From assembly GCA_017460885.1 (NCBI GenBank), contig JAFUAB010000032.1, positions 1 through 39,439 on the forward strand: DNA of 39,439 nt, given 5' to 3'. The notes beneath the pieces were generated by a model. That model did no database searches. It saw only the letters and a list, made by a program, of their open reading frames with translations, and was not told the DNA's origin. The stretch comes from Lachnospiraceae bacterium. Its GTDB lineage: Bacteria; Bacillota; Clostridia; Lachnospirales; Lachnospiraceae. A program made the translations under genes and the position numbers. How positions within the stretch are numbered: position 1 is the stretch's first letter; each line of letters opens with the position of its first letter. Below, piece by piece: positions 31,687-38,769 of this stretch.

Positions 31687-31821
31687 TCTCAGTATGTAAA
31701 AGAATTGGATGGGCGGCGTATCCATCATATCAGGTTCCCCGAAGGGAGCGCAGGGTGCCTTTCCTGCTCGTCAATCTCTTTACACCTATAAGGTAGCATT
31801 TTATAACCGGTCAGTCAAGGG

Positions 31822-32193
31822 CTATTTGCCGTTTATCTCAACTTTTTTCAGCCTTCCTGTCTTCAGATAGTACTCAATCTTTCCCATTTTTACATCGAAC
31901 ATAGTAGCAACATAATACTGATGTTTTTTACCATCAAGTTTAATGCTGATAAATATATTGTCCTTGAAAATCTTTACCAATTCTATATTTCCATCATAAT
32001 ATCCGGCATAGTCCGGTGTTTCGATGATTTCCGGCAGGTAATCCACATACTTTGCAGCAGTAAAGTGTTTTCGCTTTATCAGATGTGTCAGCAGCCCTTT
32101 GGAGCGATATATGGCAAAAGCCTGATACTCCGTACCGAGCAGTGCATTCAAGTTAGTATTGAAGGTTGCTATTCTAATTAGTTTATCACTCAA
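31822..32193 (-). CDS. PBECR-type (phage-Barnase-EndoU-Colicin-RelE-like) small protein
   Basis: A 123-residue protein: 'KGLLTHLIKRKHFTAAKYVDYLPEIIETPDYAGYYDGNIELVKIFKDNIFISIKLDGKK', then 'YYVATMFDV' and 'LKTGRLKKVEING'. This resembles PBECR3-type domains, RelE/barnase-like nucleases found in phages and mobile elements, in which a His-containing helix, 'PDYVG' loop and 'IELVK' strand recur. Assignment is from memory of the family and moderate. The start is TTG at 32193 with AGAAGGA about 8 bases upstream on that strand. It is the only gene on the minus strand in this remnant zone; no obvious antitoxin lies next to it. Confidence 0.6.
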   Translation of the reverse strand: MSDKLIRIATFNTNLNALLGTEYQAFAIYRSKGLLTHLIKRKHFTAAKYVDYLPEIIETPDYAGYYDGNIELVKIFKDNIFISIKLDGKKHQYYVATMFDVKMGKIEYYLKTGRLKKVEINGK

Positions 32194-32536
32194 AAACTAT
32201 TTCCTTCTTTCAAAATAATGGCGTGGAGGTTCGCTGTAAGTTAAACCTTGGAATATTTGTCAGTCCAAATGTCAATTTTATGATATCACGAACAGTTGGA
32301 AAGACAAGGTATTTTACGAGGAAATCACTTTTTCCTACGCTGACTGATATTGCTTTTGAGAAGAGGAGACAGCTTTATTATATCGAGAACGGTTTGCCGC
32401 TGATCATCGCTCATTTTATCTGCCGGTATCTGTAACTGACCAAGGAGTATATCCATAAGTTGCTACGGGGATCCTGCATTTGAATCTGAACTGATATCAA
32501 GTGCTTGTGTCATCTGATCAAGCATAAGAAGAGACA

Positions 32537-32740
32537 TTGCGCATCATAGCACAGGAGGAGAGGGAAGAGGGCCGCGAGGAAGGCCGCGCAGAAGGCCGTA
32601 AAGAAGGTCGTGCAGAGGGGCTTCGTGAGTCCATCGGGAACATGCTTCGGAGAGGTAAGACCGTTGATGAGATCGTTGACTTCTGTGATTATCCGAGAGA
32701 ATTTGTAGAGGAGATCAGAGAGCGGGAGGGCATCTCATAA
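32537..32740 (+). pseudogene. C-terminal tail of an Rpn/PD-(D/E)XK nuclease-transposase family protein
   Basis: The segment 'AQEEREEGREEGRAEGRKEG' followed by 'MLRRGKTVDEIVDFCDYPREFVEEIRERE' is the typical Glu/Gly/Arg-rich tail of Rpn-type recombination-promoting nucleases in Clostridia. The nuclease part is absent; an in-frame stop lies just upstream of 32537 and no ribosome site is seen. The 32200-32536 interval contains protein-like fragments (MISRTVGKTRYFTRKSLFPT) not assigned to a family. Confidence 0.6.
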
Positions 32741-32741
32741 A

Positions 32742-32787
32742 AGACAGAGAACCGTCCCCTGTATTCTTCGTCCCCTGTCTTCTGAGA
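32742..32787. repeat. REP-like repeat, inverted relative to 368-428
   Basis: CGTCCCCTGT occurs twice (32753-32762 and 32769-32778), bounded by AGACAG (32742-32747) and CTGTCT (32775-32780). On the minus strand it reads CAGGGGACGG, like the CGGGGACGG unit near the start of the window. Confidence 0.55.
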
Positions 32788-32923
32788 TAAAATATTACAA
32801 ATTGGTGATAGACTTTTTATACGGGGGATGATATCATAGTATGAAATAGATATGCTTTCTTATGTGACCTGATGAAGAACCGTATTCAAAAGATTCATAA
32901 GTAAAGAGGGGGAAATTTTCATC

Positions 32924-32952
32924 TTGACACAGGGTTTTAGCTGGAGGATAAT
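32924..32952 (+). promoter_or_regulatory. promoter upstream of the surface protein leader
   Basis: TTGACA (32924-32929), 17 bases, GATAAT (32947-32952). Predicted start near 32959. The first product is a ~90-base RNA ending in a terminator; readthrough would transcribe the surface protein gene. Confidence 0.55.
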
Positions 32953-32958
32953 CCTTGC

Positions 32959-33049
32959 ACCAGCAGCCAGCAGGCAGTTAGTAGCTGCAAATCGTCTTTT
33001 TTGTGTACCCTCATAAAAGTGATTAAAGCGGAGCCATGCTCCGTTTTTT
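32959..33049 (+). ncRNA. candidate small RNA or attenuated leader
   Basis: A promoter and an intrinsic terminator bracket about 90 bases with no reading frame or ribosome site. The first half can pair locally (GCAGC near 32965 with GCTGC near 32987). It may be an independent small RNA or the first half of a regulated leader for the gene at 33181. No known class recognised. Confidence 0.4.
33029..33049 (+). terminator. intrinsic terminator
   Basis: CGGAGC (33029-33034) and GCTCCG (33038-33043) with a CAT loop, followed by six Ts. Confidence 0.8.
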
Positions 33050-33064
33050 GTTTTTATCGCAAAA

Positions 33065-33140
33065 CCGTCGAAAGGAAAATGTCAGCTAAAGCTGACCGAC
33101 GGCTCGCGGACGAGCAGGGGGATCTCATATCCTCTGCTCG
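33065..33140 (+). promoter_or_regulatory. structured 5' UTR of the large surface protein gene
   Basis: CCGTCG (33065-33070) pairs with CGACGG (33097-33102), enclosing a second perfect stem GTCAGCT/AGCTGAC (33081-33087/33090-33096) with a one-sided A-rich bulge (AAAGGAAAAT). A third helix, CGAGCAG/CTGCTCG (33111-33117/33134-33140), continues inside with GGAT/ATCC. About 30 bases later comes the GAGGAGG ribosome site. This is an ordered RNA fold; it lacks the GACGCAAAGC core of c-di-GMP-I riboswitches. Confidence 0.5.
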
Positions 33141-33180
33141 ATTATAAATATAGATCAAAGTAGATTTGAGGAGGAAGATC

Positions 33181-36100
33181 ATGAAAAGAAGGAAAACATT
33201 AAACCGGCTGCTTGCCATGCTGCTGACGCTCATCCTGTGCGCAGGTGAATTATCTGCCACAGGGCTTAAGGTATTTGCGGCGGATGATGCAGAGGCTGCC
33301 GTATCGGGAAATGATGCGCTGAGTGTGTATGAGATCAGCGAAAATGATACGGGTGAAGATCTTATAAGTGAAAATGCACCCGGCGAAAACGCTGTCACGG
33401 ATAACGATGAAAAAGATGCAACGGAAGCCCCCGACGAAGAGATCGCTGTTGATGATATGGCGGATCCCTCGGCGGAGGAAGAGGAAGCAGAATCAGAAGG
33501 AACGGAGGAGGAAGAGCTTGACGAAGATCCTGCTTCTGAGGAAGATGCCGGAACGGAAGAGGGTATCATCATTGTGGACGGGGATGCAGGCAGCGAGGAG
33601 ATCACGGCGGATAAGGATGCCGATTCCTTTGAAAATACGGAGATCACCCCCGATGGCAGCGGGGAGGATTTTCAAAAGACTGCTGATAATACGATGTTTG
33701 GTAATGTGGGGATGGTCAATCCCAGAGTTCCCAATTCAGTTAATGATGAATGGCAGGGAAGTTATGTGTACTATGGGAAATATAATGGTAAGGCGGTAAA
33801 ATACCGTGTTCTCGATAAAAGCACCAGTGGCGAATACAGCTTAACCAATACCATGCTTTTGGATTGTGATTCAGTATTGTACGATGGGAGAATGTCATGG
33901 GATGCTGGTGATATAAACTGGAATTCTGGTGGTGAGAAGTATGATAATGGTATAGATCATTATATCCAAACAATAATTAGAACCAACCTGAATGGAGAAT
34001 GGTTTTCTAATTCTTTTACTAGAATAGAAGGGGCCAGAATAGTAAAAAGCACCAAAAAGGAGAAAAGTGTAAAAGATGCAAATAAAGAGTACCCGGAGAG
34101 TGATTATCTTGTAAGAGATAGAATATTCATATTAGCGAATATAGAAGCGGAAAGGGAATCGTATGGATATGCTTCCAATGCACGATCAAGAGTTAGGCAG
34201 AATCAACAAGGTGACTTGTGTTTGTGGTTACGAAGTAAAGATAGCTATAGTGCGACCAAATCTATAGTATGGTATAAAGCTATTAATAGTGAGGGGAAGA
34301 CAGAAAGACGAGAGGCTTGGAGAGAGTATGCAGGCGTCTGTCCTGCCTTTAATGTAAAAACAGAAGATATATTGTTTTCCACAGCAGTAATGGGAGCAAA
34401 GGGACAATTAGGAACCGAGTATAAGCTTACCCTTCGAGCAGGCGATGACAGCTATATGAAGGTACAGCTTCCTTCGTCGAAAAAGGCGACTGTAACAGGG
34501 AAAAATGTCAGCGTACCCTTTTCCCTTACCGGAACGAATGCAACAGATGCTTCAGTATCCGTCATGATCCTTAACAGAACATATCAATGGGGTTATATGA
34601 ATGATGTTCCGATCAGGTACTACGGCAAACTGGAGGGTTCAGGGGACTTTACGACTAACGGAGTGGGAAGCTTCACTCTGCCTTCAGATCTTGATGTGAA
34701 TAATTGGGGCAGCTCCTACCATGTATACCTTATCCCGGAAGACATAAACGGTGAACATGAGACGGATTATGCCGGGGAACCCTATGAGATAACCAAGGAT
34801 ATGGTGAGCATAGATAATTCGGTTACCGTGACCTTCGACCTGCAGGGACACGGGAATGCCAATTCAAGCTACTATCAGCCGCGGAAGGTTGATAGCGGTT
34901 CTGCTATCGCAGAGCCTGTTGAACCTTCGGAGAGTGGTTATGCATTCAAGGGATGGTATACCTCTGTTTCCGATCACAGCTCTTCAAACGAATATGACTT
35001 TTCCACTCCGGTTAACGGAAACATCACTCTGTATGCCTACTGGGTGAAGACCTATGCGGTGAGCTTTGATCTTACTGAGCATCCAACCAGATCCGGGATC
35101 GAGCCCCAATATGTGGAAGAAGGGCAGAAAGCTACAAGGCCTGAGACCTTTAAGGTAAGCGGCTATGAAGTGGTGGACTGGTATACGGCCAAAACGAGAT
35201 GGAATTATCAATTATATGATTTTGATACACCCGTAACGGCAGATATAACCCTGTATGCATCATGGAAGGATGTATCCAATTGCAAGGTGACCTTTGATCT
35301 CAACGCTTCCTCCGGTATCGGACCGGGTACCTTATATGTTGCTACGGGAAGCAAGGTAGCAAAGCCGGATAATCCATCGAATTCGGAAGGCTGGGTTTTC
35401 GGCGGCTGGTATACGGATAAGGCATGTTCGGCCGGTAAGGAGTATGATTTTAACGCTGCCGTAAATGAGGATATGACACTCTATGCGAAGTGGACAGATA
35501 AGCTTAACCTGTGGGTGAACGGTGTACAACTGGGGAAGGATAACTTAAGCACAGGTGACTGGACATACACCTCCAAAACAAATGTGCTGGACCTTAAAAA
35601 TGTTACATTTGAGAAAACGCATATAGAAGATAACAATACAATAATGATGGGATCATATGCTTATGTAGCATATGTTTATGCCAAAGGGATACCTCTGAAA
35701 GTGACAGGAAAGGGATTGACCTCATCTTCGGCAAAGACCTCCAGCAACATAGCCGGCATATTGGTTGAGGATGCGCCTCTTACGGTTGATGCAGACCTTG
35801 AGCTTACCGGTACCGGAGCGGGTATATGTGCAAAGAATGTGACCATAGAAGGCGGAAGGATAAATATCTCAAGCAGTGCTTCCGTTGAAAAAGTCGATCT
35901 GGGCAGGGGACGTACTTATACAAAGACTCCCTACGGCATATATGGTCATGATTCCGTTACCATAAACGGCGGAGATGTTAATATCAACATGAGTGGAAAC
36001 GAAGCTATCGGTATCCGCCTCTGGTATGGAGATATAGATATAAGCGGCGGTTCCCTTAAGGTCAGTGTGAATGGTTCGAAGAGCAGTAGAGCTGTTGATG

Positions 36101-38769
36101 CTATGCAGGGCGGTATCAATAATTCCCTCTATTATGTAACGCCCGCAGGCGGTAAGGTGGATGCTTCGGGACACTTCTTTACCGACGCCTACGGTGATGA
36201 GGCTTACGAAATAGAGCTTGCGGGTGAGGACAGCCTTATGCGTACCGTAAGCTTTGACTTAAACGGCAAGCCCGGAACCGCACCCGCACCGCAGGTTCTT
36301 ATGAAGGGTAAAAAGGCAACGGCTCCGGCCGCTCCAGAAACACCCGGCTATACCTTTAAGGGGTGGTATACGAACGCGGATTGCAAGGATGAGGACCGGT
36401 ATTACTTTGATACGGGCGTTACCGAGAACATCACTCTTTATGCAGGCTGGGAAGAGATTATAATACCCAAGTATATCGTGAGCTTTGATCTTAAAGGACA
36501 CGGTGGAGCTATTGCCGCTGTGACCGTAAATGAAGGCGAATCCGTCACAAAGCCGATTGACCCTATAGAGGCAGGATATGTCTTTAAGGGCTGGTATACC
36601 GATGAGGAGTGTTCGGATGCGGCAAAATATGATTTTGCCGATAAGGTTTATGCAAACTTCACGCTATATGCCAAGTGGTCAAAGATTGAAACATTTACGG
36701 CAGAGTTTAATTTAAGCGGTCATGGAGACGCAATTGCTTCACAGAGTGTAACGGAGGGTGGAACGGTTACAAAACCGGCGGATCCCGTGGCGAGCGGCTT
36801 TACTTTTAAGGGATGGTATCTAGATGCGGAATGCACGTCGCCCTATGACTTTAATACGAAGCTGCATTCAGACGTGACCCTTTATGCCTGCTGGGTAAAG
36901 GACGGAGATACGGTGTATACCGTAAGCTTTATCATGGGAGGTTACGGCAAGTCCATACCGTCCCAGGTCGTGGCAAAGGGCAAGAAGGCCACGATGCCCG
37001 CTGATCCGGTGGACGCTTCCAGAGTGTTTGCCGGCTGGTATGCGGATGCCGGATTTACGGAGGGCTTTGATTTTGATAAAGCGATAACGGCGGATACGAG
37101 CGTGTATGCCAGGTGGGAGCCCATCGATCCGGATGGCTTCTACGCCTATTTTGCACCGGGCACATCCCTTAGCTACAATGATGGCTCGGGGCGTTATGAG
37201 CATGTTTATACCGGCTCCAAGATAACGCCCGGGATCGTGGTGGAGGACTGCGGCGGAAGGACTCTGAAAGAAGGAAAAGATTATACCGTAAAATACAGTA
37301 ATAATCAGAACGTGGATAAGAAGGGGAAGCCGGCCGTTGTAACGATCACGGGGAAGGGCCGATATAAGAATTCCAAGAAGCTTAACTTCTATATCCTGAC
37401 CAAGTCCCTCGGAAACGGAATGGATGCGACGCCCGCAGCCGGGATCTATATGGATGATTTCGTCCTGACAAGCGGAAGCAAGGCCGCACCGGTCATTTAC
37501 TATATGGGCAAAAAGCTTGGAAGTAAGGACTTTACGCTAAAGAGTAAGACAGGGGATTTGAAGTTTACGGATGCGGATGATGTGGCGGATCGAAAAATAA
37601 GCATCTACGGCAAGGGAAACTTTTCGGGCTGCATTTTTGAGGCTCCGGTGAGCCTGGTATCCAGGGACGAGCTTAAGGCCACGACCATCAATGTCAGCCT
37701 GAGTAATGTTAAATGCGTTTATAACGGGACGGCCTGGAAACTTACGGACAGCCAGCTCATCGTTAAGGACGGAGCTAAGAATGTGCTTGCTCCGGATAAG
37801 TACAAGGTTGTATATACAGACAACATGAATGCAGGAACAGCCAAAGTTACGGTATCCGGTATAAACGGCTATACCGGAACGTTTTCTAAGACCTTTAAGA
37901 TCGAACCCGATAAGAACCTGTCCGTGATGAAGGCGATCCCCGGATCCGATCCGGTCTATTATACACCCGAAGGTGCAGGTCCTAAGATTACCGTTACAGC
38001 CGATAGGGACGGTGTGACAAAGACCCTTCAGGAAGGGAAGGATTATAAGGTATCCTATTCAGGAAACAGGAAGGCTACCGATAAGGCAAAGTATACCGTA
38101 AGCTTTATCGGAAACTATAAGGGTCAGAAGAACCTTACAGGCACATATAAGATCAATGCGGCACCGTTTGAAATAAGCCGCCTTAAGGTAAACGCATCGG
38201 ATCTCGTGTACAAAAAGCCCGGGAAGTATCTCTCGGCGCCGGATGTCATGTACGACGGAGTGCTGCTGAAGAAGTCGGATTATACGGTTGTATATAAGAT
38301 CAGCGGAGAGGATATCAGCAAGGCGAATTACACGCTGACAGGATCCGCAGCTTCCGTGGATGTAACCATCACCGGAAAGGGGAACTATGCGAATACATCC
38401 GTAACGATCAGCTGCTGCTATACCATAAGGACCGCGCCGGCCGGAGCCATAGACCTAAGCAAGGCAAAGATCACGATGAAGGGTGATATGAAAAAGAAGG
38501 TACCCACGCAGGAATATTCCGGCAAGGAGCTGAAGCCGGAATTCGATCTCTACATCAAATCGGGCAACGCATGGATGAGGGCGGAGGAGCTGGGGCTTAT
38601 CCTGGGTACGGATTATGCGGTTACGTACATAAACAACACAGATAAGGGAAATGCGTACATCCTTGTTGATTCGCTGAGCAGCTCCGTGAAATGCGTTGGA
38701 CACAGGAAGGAACAGTTTAAGATCCTTCAAAAAAGCTTTGGGGGTCTCCAACTGCTTTTTAAGCTGTAG
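33181..38769 (+). CDS. giant secreted surface protein with DUF6273-like module, seven InlB B-repeats and Ig-like repeats
   Basis: An 1862-residue exported protein. Order: signal peptide (MKRRKTLNRLLAMLLTLILC...), Asp/Glu-rich segment (~35-160), a DUF6273-like domain (~170-400; 'VYYGKYNGKAVKYRVLDKS', 'LWLRSKD', 'PAFNV'), a linker, three InlB B-repeats (~547-775; VTFD...GYAFKGWYT...YDF...ITLYAYW), a beta-helix-like part ('LWVNGVQLGKDNLSTG' to ~1020), four more B-repeats (~1020-1320), then repeated Ig-like modules ('LKEGKDYTVKYSNNQNV...VVTITGKGRYKN') to the end. B-repeats are found in adhesins and surface proteins of Firmicutes. No LPXTG or membrane anchor is seen. Start ATG 33181 has GAGGAGG ~7 bases upstream. 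The DUF6273-like part is visibly richer in A+T than its flanks. Likely roles are adhesion or substrate binding, inferred. Confidence 0.9.
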   Translation: MKRRKTLNRLLAMLLTLILCAGELSATGLKVFAADDAEAAVSGNDALSVYEISENDTGEDLISENAPGENAVTDNDEKDATEAPDEEIAVDDMADPSAEEEEAESEGTEEEELDEDPASEEDAGTEEGIIIVDGDAGSEEITADKDADSFENTEITPDGSGEDFQKTADNTMFGNVGMVNPRVPNSVNDEWQGSYVYYGKYNGKAVKYRVLDKSTSGEYSLTNTMLLDCDSVLYDGRMSWDAGDINWNSGGEKYDNGIDHYIQTIIRTNLNGEWFSNSFTRIEGARIVKSTKKEKSVKDANKEYPESDYLVRDRIFILANIEAERESYGYASNARSRVRQNQQGDLCLWLRSKDSYSATKSIVWYKAINSEGKTERREAWREYAGVCPAFNVKTEDILFSTAVMGAKGQLGTEYKLTLRAGDDSYMKVQLPSSKKATVTGKNVSVPFSLTGTNATDASVSVMILNRTYQWGYMNDVPIRYYGKLEGSGDFTTNGVGSFTLPSDLDVNNWGSSYHVYLIPEDINGEHETDYAGEPYEITKDMVSIDNSVTVTFDLQGHGNANSSYYQPRKVDSGSAIAEPVEPSESGYAFKGWYTSVSDHSSSNEYDFSTPVNGNITLYAYWVKTYAVSFDLTEHPTRSGIEPQYVEEGQKATRPETFKVSGYEVVDWYTAKTRWNYQLYDFDTPVTADITLYASWKDVSNCKVTFDLNASSGIGPGTLYVATGSKVAKPDNPSNSEGWVFGGWYTDKACSAGKEYDFNAAVNEDMTLYAKWTDKLNLWVNGVQLGKDNLSTGDWTYTSKTNVLDLKNVTFEKTHIEDNNTIMMGSYAYVAYVYAKGIPLKVTGKGLTSSSAKTSSNIAGILVEDAPLTVDADLELTGTGAGICAKNVTIEGGRINISSSASVEKVDLGRGRTYTKTPYGIYGHDSVTINGGDVNINMSGNEAIGIRLWYGDIDISGGSLKVSVNGSKSSRAVDAMQGGINNSLYYVTPAGGKVDASGHFFTDAYGDEAYEIELAGEDSLMRTVSFDLNGKPGTAPAPQVLMKGKKATAPAAPETPGYTFKGWYTNADCKDEDRYYFDTGVTENITLYAGWEEIIIPKYIVSFDLKGHGGAIAAVTVNEGESVTKPIDPIEAGYVFKGWYTDEECSDAAKYDFADKVYANFTLYAKWSKIETFTAEFNLSGHGDAIASQSVTEGGTVTKPADPVASGFTFKGWYLDAECTSPYDFNTKLHSDVTLYACWVKDGDTVYTVSFIMGGYGKSIPSQVVAKGKKATMPADPVDASRVFAGWYADAGFTEGFDFDKAITADTSVYARWEPIDPDGFYAYFAPGTSLSYNDGSGRYEHVYTGSKITPGIVVEDCGGRTLKEGKDYTVKYSNNQNVDKKGKPAVVTITGKGRYKNSKKLNFYILTKSLGNGMDATPAAGIYMDDFVLTSGSKAAPVIYYMGKKLGSKDFTLKSKTGDLKFTDADDVADRKISIYGKGNFSGCIFEAPVSLVSRDELKATTINVSLSNVKCVYNGTAWKLTDSQLIVKDGAKNVLAPDKYKVVYTDNMNAGTAKVTVSGINGYTGTFSKTFKIEPDKNLSVMKAIPGSDPVYYTPEGAGPKITVTADRDGVTKTLQEGKDYKVSYSGNRKATDKAKYTVSFIGNYKGQKNLTGTYKINAAPFEISRLKVNASDLVYKKPGKYLSAPDVMYDGVLLKKSDYTVVYKISGEDISKANYTLTGSAASVDVTITGKGNYANTSVTISCCYTIRTAPAGAIDLSKAKITMKGDMKKKVPTQEYSGKELKPEFDLYIKSGNAWMRAEELGLILGTDYAVTYINNTDKGNAYILVDSLSSSVKCVGHRKEQFKILQKSFGGLQLLFKL

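Follow-up and report, generated by a model that had tools for sequence, protein, structure and literature searches.

A dispersed, terminator-seated element with a group IIC intron-like tail in the leader of a Lachnospiraceae surface-protein gene

The leader of a surface-protein gene in a Lachnospiraceae bacterium carries, between its terminator and its ribosome-binding site, one copy of a dispersed family of elements of ~87 nt, which sit behind terminators and whose 3′ end, together with the T that follows it, is common to group IIC introns of the same bacterial family. The gene lies in a 39,439-nt stretch of DNA (GenBank assembly GCA_017460885.1, contig JAFUAB010000032.1, positions 1 to 39,439 of the forward strand), hereafter "the window", to which all plain coordinates refer. 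Based on these comparisons, we consider it fairly probable that the element is a miniature, ribozyme-less, group-IIC-like retroelement that was inserted behind the terminator of the surface-gene leader, and we infer that such elements are mobilised by group IIC introns, or descend from or depend on them. It seems to represent a kind of mobile element, spread family-wide, seated behind terminators and tailed like a group IIC intron, that has not been described before. No description of it was found in the journal articles searched, which included PMC8040213, PMC8919778, PMC10190682, and PMC4424553; it may be in print elsewhere.

The leader of the surface-protein gene

The surface-protein gene (33181–38769, + strand) encodes 1862 amino acids with List_Bact_rpt/InlB-type repeats. 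Elsewhere, a 4608-residue open frame (G000:C28:37404-39962) shows 43% identity to residues 1017–1859 of this protein. Upstream of the gene, and on the same strand, lies a promoter (32924–32952) with the −35 hexamer TTGACA (32924–32929), a 17-nt spacer and the −10 hexamer GATAAT (32947–32952), which matches the consensus at 11 of 12 positions and was the best of the eight promoter-like sites in 32000–34000, a region in which shuffled sequences gave a mean of 3.6 sites. The stretch from the putative transcription start to the terminator (32959–33024, + strand) comprises an interrupted CAG-rich stretch and then a TACCCT motif (33006–33011); no tandem repeat was scored in the window leader. It is followed by an intrinsic terminator (33025–33050, + strand), the stem-loop of which (33025–33047) has 10 pairs and a loop of 3 and runs into TTTTTTG. 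The fold of 32959–33053 has a z-score of −3.0 relative to shuffles and, when the leader is cut before the 3′ arm of the terminator, the remainder folds at −17.2 kcal/mol, with part of the 5′ arm paired. Finally, a ribosome-binding site, GAGGAGG, is read from the sequence at 33168–33174 (+ strand), ahead of the ATG start codon at 33181.

The promoter, the terminator, a second fold with a bulge, and the ribosome site had all been described in the original prediction; each is present in the sequence, and the folds beat shuffled controls. Its statement that no known riboswitch class could be recognised also agrees with our Rfam search, in which no family reached its gathering score in the leader region. 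The best sub-threshold matches in 32800–33250 had E values of 0.024 and 0.042, and weak matches to AS-pc01 and Clostridiales-2 were taken as chance. The sole gathering-score match in the window is a skipping-rope RNA on the opposite strand (31700–31779, − strand; 51.8 bits).

Among 61 genomes compared at the DNA level (the window's own plus 60 relatives), there was one strong relative, which we take to be Lachnospiraceae bacterium NK4A179; in it the whole window leader recurs once, ahead of an orthologous gene. The two are identical at 24 of 29 promoter positions, including both hexamers in full, at 25 of 26 terminator positions, and at 42 of 72 positions of the leader between them, where the alignment has 18 gap columns. 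In the same check for a candidate antiterminator, the ortholog leader, with part of its repeat omitted, folds at −6.6 kcal/mol. Further upstream, the region ahead of the −35 hexamer (32809–32923) is conserved with NK4A179 at 85 of 113 positions and contains another promoter-like site. NK4A179 also has a paralog of the gene, whose leader consists of TTGACA, a short repeat, a 13-bp terminator, a T-run, and a ribosome site; no full promoter was scored there by the promoter scan.

Each of the two NK4A179 leaders starts with a short, perfect tandem repeat, the ortholog with (GTCA)10.5 (L022:1100-1141) and the paralog with (GATTC)8.2 (L302:1060-1100); these are possible contingency loci. Since the promoter, leader, and terminator recur in the ortholog, and a repeat and terminator recur in the paralog, it is plausible that the surface-protein gene has a terminator-controlled leader, in which case the gene would be expressed by read-through of that terminator. 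The repeats at the leader starts make variable surface-protein expression worth testing, and this is what survives of the earlier idea of phase control.

An element of two hairpins

The segment behind the terminator is a dispersed, intron-like element of ~87 nt (33056–33142, + strand). Its edges were set by comparison, and the 5′ edge is uncertain by a few nucleotides beside the T-run. The second fold (33056–33150) reaches −38.3 kcal/mol, with a z-score of −5.6 and none of 200 shuffles as good. A third hairpin (33111–33140), which had not been separated previously, goes with this fold, so that the element is made up of two hairpins; the segment around the third hairpin (33108–33145) has a z-score of −4.3, with 1 of 200 shuffles as good.

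The left hairpin (33058–33108, + strand), which on our reading is domain-I-like, shows two-sided compensatory changes in helices 1–3. It carries a one-sided, purine-rich bulge of 10 nt, AAAGGAAAAT (33071–33080, + strand; family consensus roughly AARGRAAWWT), which resembles AAAGA, the bases with which a group IIC intron binds its exon, and by analogy may have the same function. Because the 5′ flanks of the elements are T-runs, covariation between bulge and flank is not usable, and the bulge was compared with published EBS1 only; a bulged A was considered as EBS3, and was not counted. The right hairpin and its AT tail (33111–33142, + strand) correspond to domain VI plus the 3′ terminus in group IIC introns (3′ end CTGCTCGAT, family consensus CCTACTCGAT; the window copy ends TGCTCGAT, the consensus TACTCGAT). 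Right after the element, the T at 33143 (+ strand) takes the place that IBS3 has in group IIC targets. A mini-ORF within the element (start ATGTCAGCTAAAGC, with AAGGA upstream) was rejected, as the stems of the element and the reading frame differ among copies, one of which lacks AAGGA.

We built a covariance model, R1, from ten copies, and it matches the window copy, itself one of the ten, at 33054–33142 with 94.4 bits. The structure of the element is kept by compensatory change. In an alignment of 95 rows (A4), 95.0% of the cells are paired (70.2% in shuffles), 20 of 27 pairs show two-sided change (534 such cells versus 168.6 in shuffles), and the covariation score is 0.502 (0.116 in shuffles, 0.049–0.075 in slid controls), while an alignment of a second set of elements (A7) has 94.8% of cells paired, two-sided change in 19 of 27 pairs (284 cells versus 87.2), and a score of 0.479 (versus 0.126); both alignments were fitted to the R1 model, and the counts lean toward structure to that extent. 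Helices 1–3 of the left hairpin vary in sequence, and helix 4, the right hairpin, is almost invariant, a constancy that is partly built in, as the pattern used to fetch the loci required that sequence.

A family spread across Lachnospiraceae

A part of the window leader, ~100 nt in length, was matched in eleven further places in NK4A179 (two pairs of which look like one place each at overlapping contig ends), and two more were found later. These copies stand behind different terminators and have unrelated neighbours, including tRNA-Lys and tRNA-Gln; one is the same as the copy on ATWC01000015. At E ≤ 1e-4, R1 matches 73 of 397 Lachnospiraceae genomes, with a second subtype included. Ten candidates were scored per genome, and copy numbers per genome are therefore "at least" values. 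The window genome itself has five R1 matches. In an order-level draw, 5 of 196 genomes match R1, two of them, both weak, outside Lachnospiraceae. A search of GTDB contigs with a pattern for the right hairpin returned at least 119 stretches, and the 80 titles among the matches listed are mostly of Lachnospiraceae. When R1 was run on the pattern loci, it gave 95 matches in 77 of 80 loci (the first set) and 55 matches in 37 of 39 others (the second set).

At E ≤ 0.5, no Rfam family matched the element in 14 element loci, and a blastn search of plasmid and phage record collections with one NK4A179 copy gave no match. A phage contig in IMG/VR, however, holds one copy (L313:8077-8166), which lies behind a terminator-like hairpin and just upstream of a terminase small-subunit gene.

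Several loci hold tandem arrays (L159:93-397 and L223:2748-3186, and also L105, L139, L178, L186, L192, L204, and L242), in which the junction is often CTCGAT followed directly by TGCACAGG, and the stems differ between some units. In one of them, two tandem elements lie behind a 6S RNA gene (L105:799-1203). The second subtype (L078, L085, L090–L096, and L103) has an extra hairpin ahead of the left hairpin and a right end reading GAGTCTTGAC, with one copy differing; many of its copies are nearly identical, and they do not lie behind T-runs. Five inspected cases that are degenerate or retain the right end only could be read as 5′-truncated products of reverse transcription, but we make no such claim, since the pattern selects right ends and 3′-truncated copies exist too.

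Elements follow terminators, and an orthologous site is empty in congeners

A terminator-like stem and T-run lies directly upstream of 64 of 78 elements in the first set (the 95 matches less 12 internal tandem units, 2 with short flanks, and 3 weak partial ones). The same test was positive for 1 of 77 when applied to the opposite end, and for 44 of 1560 when applied to random positions. When the same code was afterwards applied to the second set (40 elements, after 13 tandem units and 2 with short flanks had been left out of the 55), terminators were found upstream of 33 of 40, at the other end of 1 of 39, and at 10 of 800 random positions. Some of the elements failing the test still follow terminators by eye, and by eye so do all five copies in the window genome, one of which lies between the terminator of a cobalamin-riboswitch leader and its ribosome site.

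One clean orthologous empty site was examined, the spoVG–pth interval, and it reveals a lineage-specific insertion. In the window genome the interval holds a terminator, the element, and the start of pth, whereas six congeners (G001–G006) have the orthologous spoVG terminator and pth and no element; R1 found nothing in these six loci up to an E value of 10. The T-run of the spoVG terminator is 7 long in two of the congeners, which equals the 5 before plus the 2 after the element in the window genome, and 4 long in the other four; a run of 7 split into 5 and 2 fits insertion within the run without duplication. A transketolase locus (G067) was set aside as an empty site, as the relative lacks the terminator too. 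At the surface-protein gene, the NK4A179 paralog leader is free of the element when searched with R1, and its homology to the window resumes at 33142–33143, the 3′ edge of the element. This element-free paralog leader suggests that the leader of the surface gene is probably older than the insertion.

The tail and target of group IIC introns

According to two published studies, the insertion sites of class C introns lie immediately behind Rho-independent terminators (PMC8919778), and the Eubacterium rectale (E. rectale) IIC intron acts on a DNA stem-loop with IBS1 CTTT, IBS3 T, and an EBS1, AAAG, that is extended by A (PMC10190682). We sought group II introns in 12 of the genomes and found them in five. 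Several of these introns end in CTCCTACTCGAT, like the element, and others in CTACTCGAC or differently. A domain VI running from GAGAGG to CCTACTCGAT, with the end CTACTCGAT, was seen in 22 of 25 inspected intron loci (the other three had none), although the intron-end motif used in these 25 loci was close to the end being counted. The pattern from GAGAGG to CTCCTACTCGAT occurs in 120 of 397 Lachnospiraceae genomes, and its backward control gave 1 hit. The element reads GAG-T-AGG at the corresponding place and closes with the same CCTACTCGAT, so that the basal helix is as in the intron, apart from one extra base facing the branch-site A.

In the family-genome set, 37 of 52 main-type rows end TACTCGAT (14 of the 66 rows, of the second subtype, being set aside), as do 82 of the 95 first-set rows, and 91 of 95 rows close with the 3′ AT. 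At the 5′ end most rows read ATGCRC; by a crude count, GTGCGC occurs in 2 of 147. A T comes directly after 53 of 61 first-set elements (from 92, with 27 followed by another unit and 4 without a recognised end excluded), 24 of 27 second-set elements (with 20 followed by a unit and 8 without an end excluded), and 17 of 22 introns, against a background of 0.233.

Group IIC-like enzymes were found beside two of the introns. A reverse transcriptase encoded near an intron in the window genome matches GsI-IIC (4.3e-111) and 7uim (8.8e-107), the latter presumably the E. rectale IIC enzyme, and is a group II reverse transcriptase by NCBIfam. The other, in G361, matches 7uim at 2.1e-209; this genome also has a group IIC intron that abuts an element on its upstream side. 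At a further locus (L330), a more distant group II reverse transcriptase unit, a group IIC intron, and an element are stacked in series.

The element itself holds no reverse transcriptase, the group IIC enzyme of the window genome being encoded elsewhere, and domain V (RF00029) gave no match, either at gathering score in the window or up to an E value of 10 in 32800–33250. The position of the branch site is base paired (U-A in 84 of 95 rows, C-G in 4 of 95), and in the window copy it is a G paired with C, which makes lariat branching of the element unlikely. Beyond a similar first hexamer, we saw no sequence shared between the left hairpin and domain I or the 5′ region of the introns.

Across genomes, the association between element and intron is weak. 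An exact intron 3′ end is present in 28 of 73 element genomes and in 92 of 324 others (p = 0.064), and 21 of 86 genomes with a IIC-like reverse transcriptase hold the element, compared with 52 of 311 others (p = 0.073). A subset of close reverse transcriptases (≥71% identical), which was chosen afterwards, gave 14 of 39 versus 59 of 358 (p = 0.005). The R1, reverse-transcriptase, and intron-end searches were each made on the 397-genome family draw, and all R1 and reverse-transcriptase positives were among the genomes covered by the intron-end search. Draft assemblies tend to break at multi-copy introns, several of which lie at contig ends, and the test for co-occurrence is blurred as a result. 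In NK4A179, where copies of the element are nearly identical, these thresholds gave neither a IIC-like reverse transcriptase nor the intron 3′ end; the group II introns that this genome does have end CTACTCGAC.

Alternative origins and functions

The element could instead be a dispersed, palindromic DNA repeat akin to REPs or MITEs, mobilised by a hairpin-preferring transposase, in which case its likeness to an intron tail would be due to chance or capture. Being short, palindromic, extragenic, and multi-copy, with tandem arrays, it has the look of such a repeat, and the weak co-occurrence with group IIC introns points the same way. Tandem arrays, moreover, could also arise by unequal crossing-over, which we counted against a retroelement. 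We nevertheless regard this origin as unlikely. Genes for Y1 transposases, the one family searched for, are present in 8 of 14 genomes at 21 loci, and no element lies within their flanks of ~1.5 kb; a Y1/RAYT transposase was consequently rejected as the mover. The Y1 gene that was read in NK4A179 is flanked by a different palindrome, GGGGACGGGG, and the 3′ decamer, the T at +1, the strand, and the target of the element all coincide with those of group IIC introns. The window also contains, at 32744–32783, CGTCCCCTGT repeats and a palindrome like the GGGGACGGGG palindromes around the RAYT-like Y1 gene of NK4A179 (L112).

The genes beside the elements bear on a second alternative, that of a cis-regulatory RNA class (riboswitch or attenuator) serving many genes. 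On this account the window copy would be half of a two-part switch for the surface protein, with transcription stopped first and translation controlled second, as the original prediction had proposed. Its fold is strong and covarying, and both here and in the cobalamin-riboswitch leader of the same genome the element sits between terminator and ribosome site. However, with one element taken per locus and mechanically called ORFs, the downstream gene in 77 loci is on the same strand in 40 cases and convergent in 28 (28 of 68 classified), with 5 short and 4 without a gene, and the downstream genes are unrelated. On the upstream side, the neighbouring gene has its end at the element in 51 cases and its start there in 11, with 9 short and 6 without a gene. 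Elements were found behind tRNA genes, a 6S RNA gene, and ordinary genes, and are missing at orthologous and paralogous sites. This pattern fits an element seated behind terminators, not a class of leader RNA, and a cis-regulatory class is to our minds very improbable.

The proposed switch thus divides. Its first part, a terminator-controlled leader, is plausible, as the promoter, leader, and terminator recur in NK4A179. Its second part, a matched module for translational control, was not supported: the second fold is a dispersed element that occurs with unrelated terminators and with unrelated or convergent downstream genes, it is missing from the paralog leader, and 25 nt separate its end from the ribosome site. 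The covariance search and comparison of homologous leaders that had been suggested as checks divide likewise, with the promoter and terminator recurring and the second fold turning out to be a member of a dispersed family.

Finally, we think it very improbable that the element is a functional 3′-end module, gained where useful, that serves as a backup for termination or in the processing of read-through RNA. In favour of this are the tight one-strand association with terminators and the 51 of 62 classified cases in which the upstream gene ends at the element; against it are a patchy distribution (73 of 397 genomes), absence from six congeners at spoVG, near-identical copies within one genome, and tandem arrays.

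A proposed retroelement as a part of the leader

We return to the favoured reading, a miniature group-IIC-like retroelement. It would move as RNA, and a group IIC ribonucleoprotein would insert it in trans, recognising the terminator stem-loop and T-run. As the target is terminators, regulatory ones included, insertions would enter leaders such as those of the surface gene and of the cobalamin riboswitch in the same genome. In the former, terminator read-through would add two stable hairpins 38–125 nt upstream of the start codon, and in the read-through mRNA the element would form a structured spacer ahead of the ribosome site, with possible effects on mRNA stability or translation.

If group IIC introns do move the elements in trans, the latter would constitute a retroelement that is non-autonomous and aims precisely at a non-coding target, and a natural bacterial case of the proposed origin of spliceosomal introns, in which fragments need a shared catalytic core. 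Bacterial group II introns have mostly come to light through a reverse transcriptase or a domain V (PMC4424553), and a form with neither would therefore be missed. With slightly less than even confidence, we also suggest that the element may be a bacterial counterpart of SINEs and of the group III introns of Euglena, in which an exon-binding hairpin and a domain-VI hairpin, ~87 nt together, are reverse-spliced in trans by group IIC ribonucleoproteins into terminator stem-loops; such ribozyme-less intron parasites would have dispersed among Lachnospiraceae, entered at least one phage, and become parts of gene leaders.

Comparison with known systems

Bacterial surface genes with short-repeat, terminator-controlled leaders are a known type. 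The arrangement of promoter, repeat, terminator, and ribosome site is the same in the leaders described here, but the window leader lacks a scoring tandem repeat, and switching is only a candidate in this case. REP elements with RAYT transposases resemble the element in being extragenic, palindromic, multi-copy repeats; the element differs from them in having no Y1 transposase nearby in the loci searched, an intron-like 3′ end, and a seat behind terminators.

With group IIC introns (bacterial class C, as in E. rectale and GsI-IIC), the element has in common the 3′ end CCTACTCGAT and the basal stem of domain VI, the target of stem-loop and T-run, the T at +1, and the terminator strand, and its bulge is like the EBS1 AAAGA. 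In contrast to these introns, it is ~87 nt long, has no domain V and no reverse transcriptase, starts with AUGCRC rather than GUGCGC, has a base-paired branch site, and shows no domain I homology that we could see. The chloroplast group III introns of Euglena, as portrayed in PMC4424553, are excised from the mRNAs of genes, whereas the elements are intergenic in the loci seen, with no splicing known. They are small (~90–120 nt), sometimes comprise only DI and DVI motifs without domain V, and are thought to need trans-acting machinery (PMC4424553); the element fits them in its size and parts, although we saw no DI homology in it.
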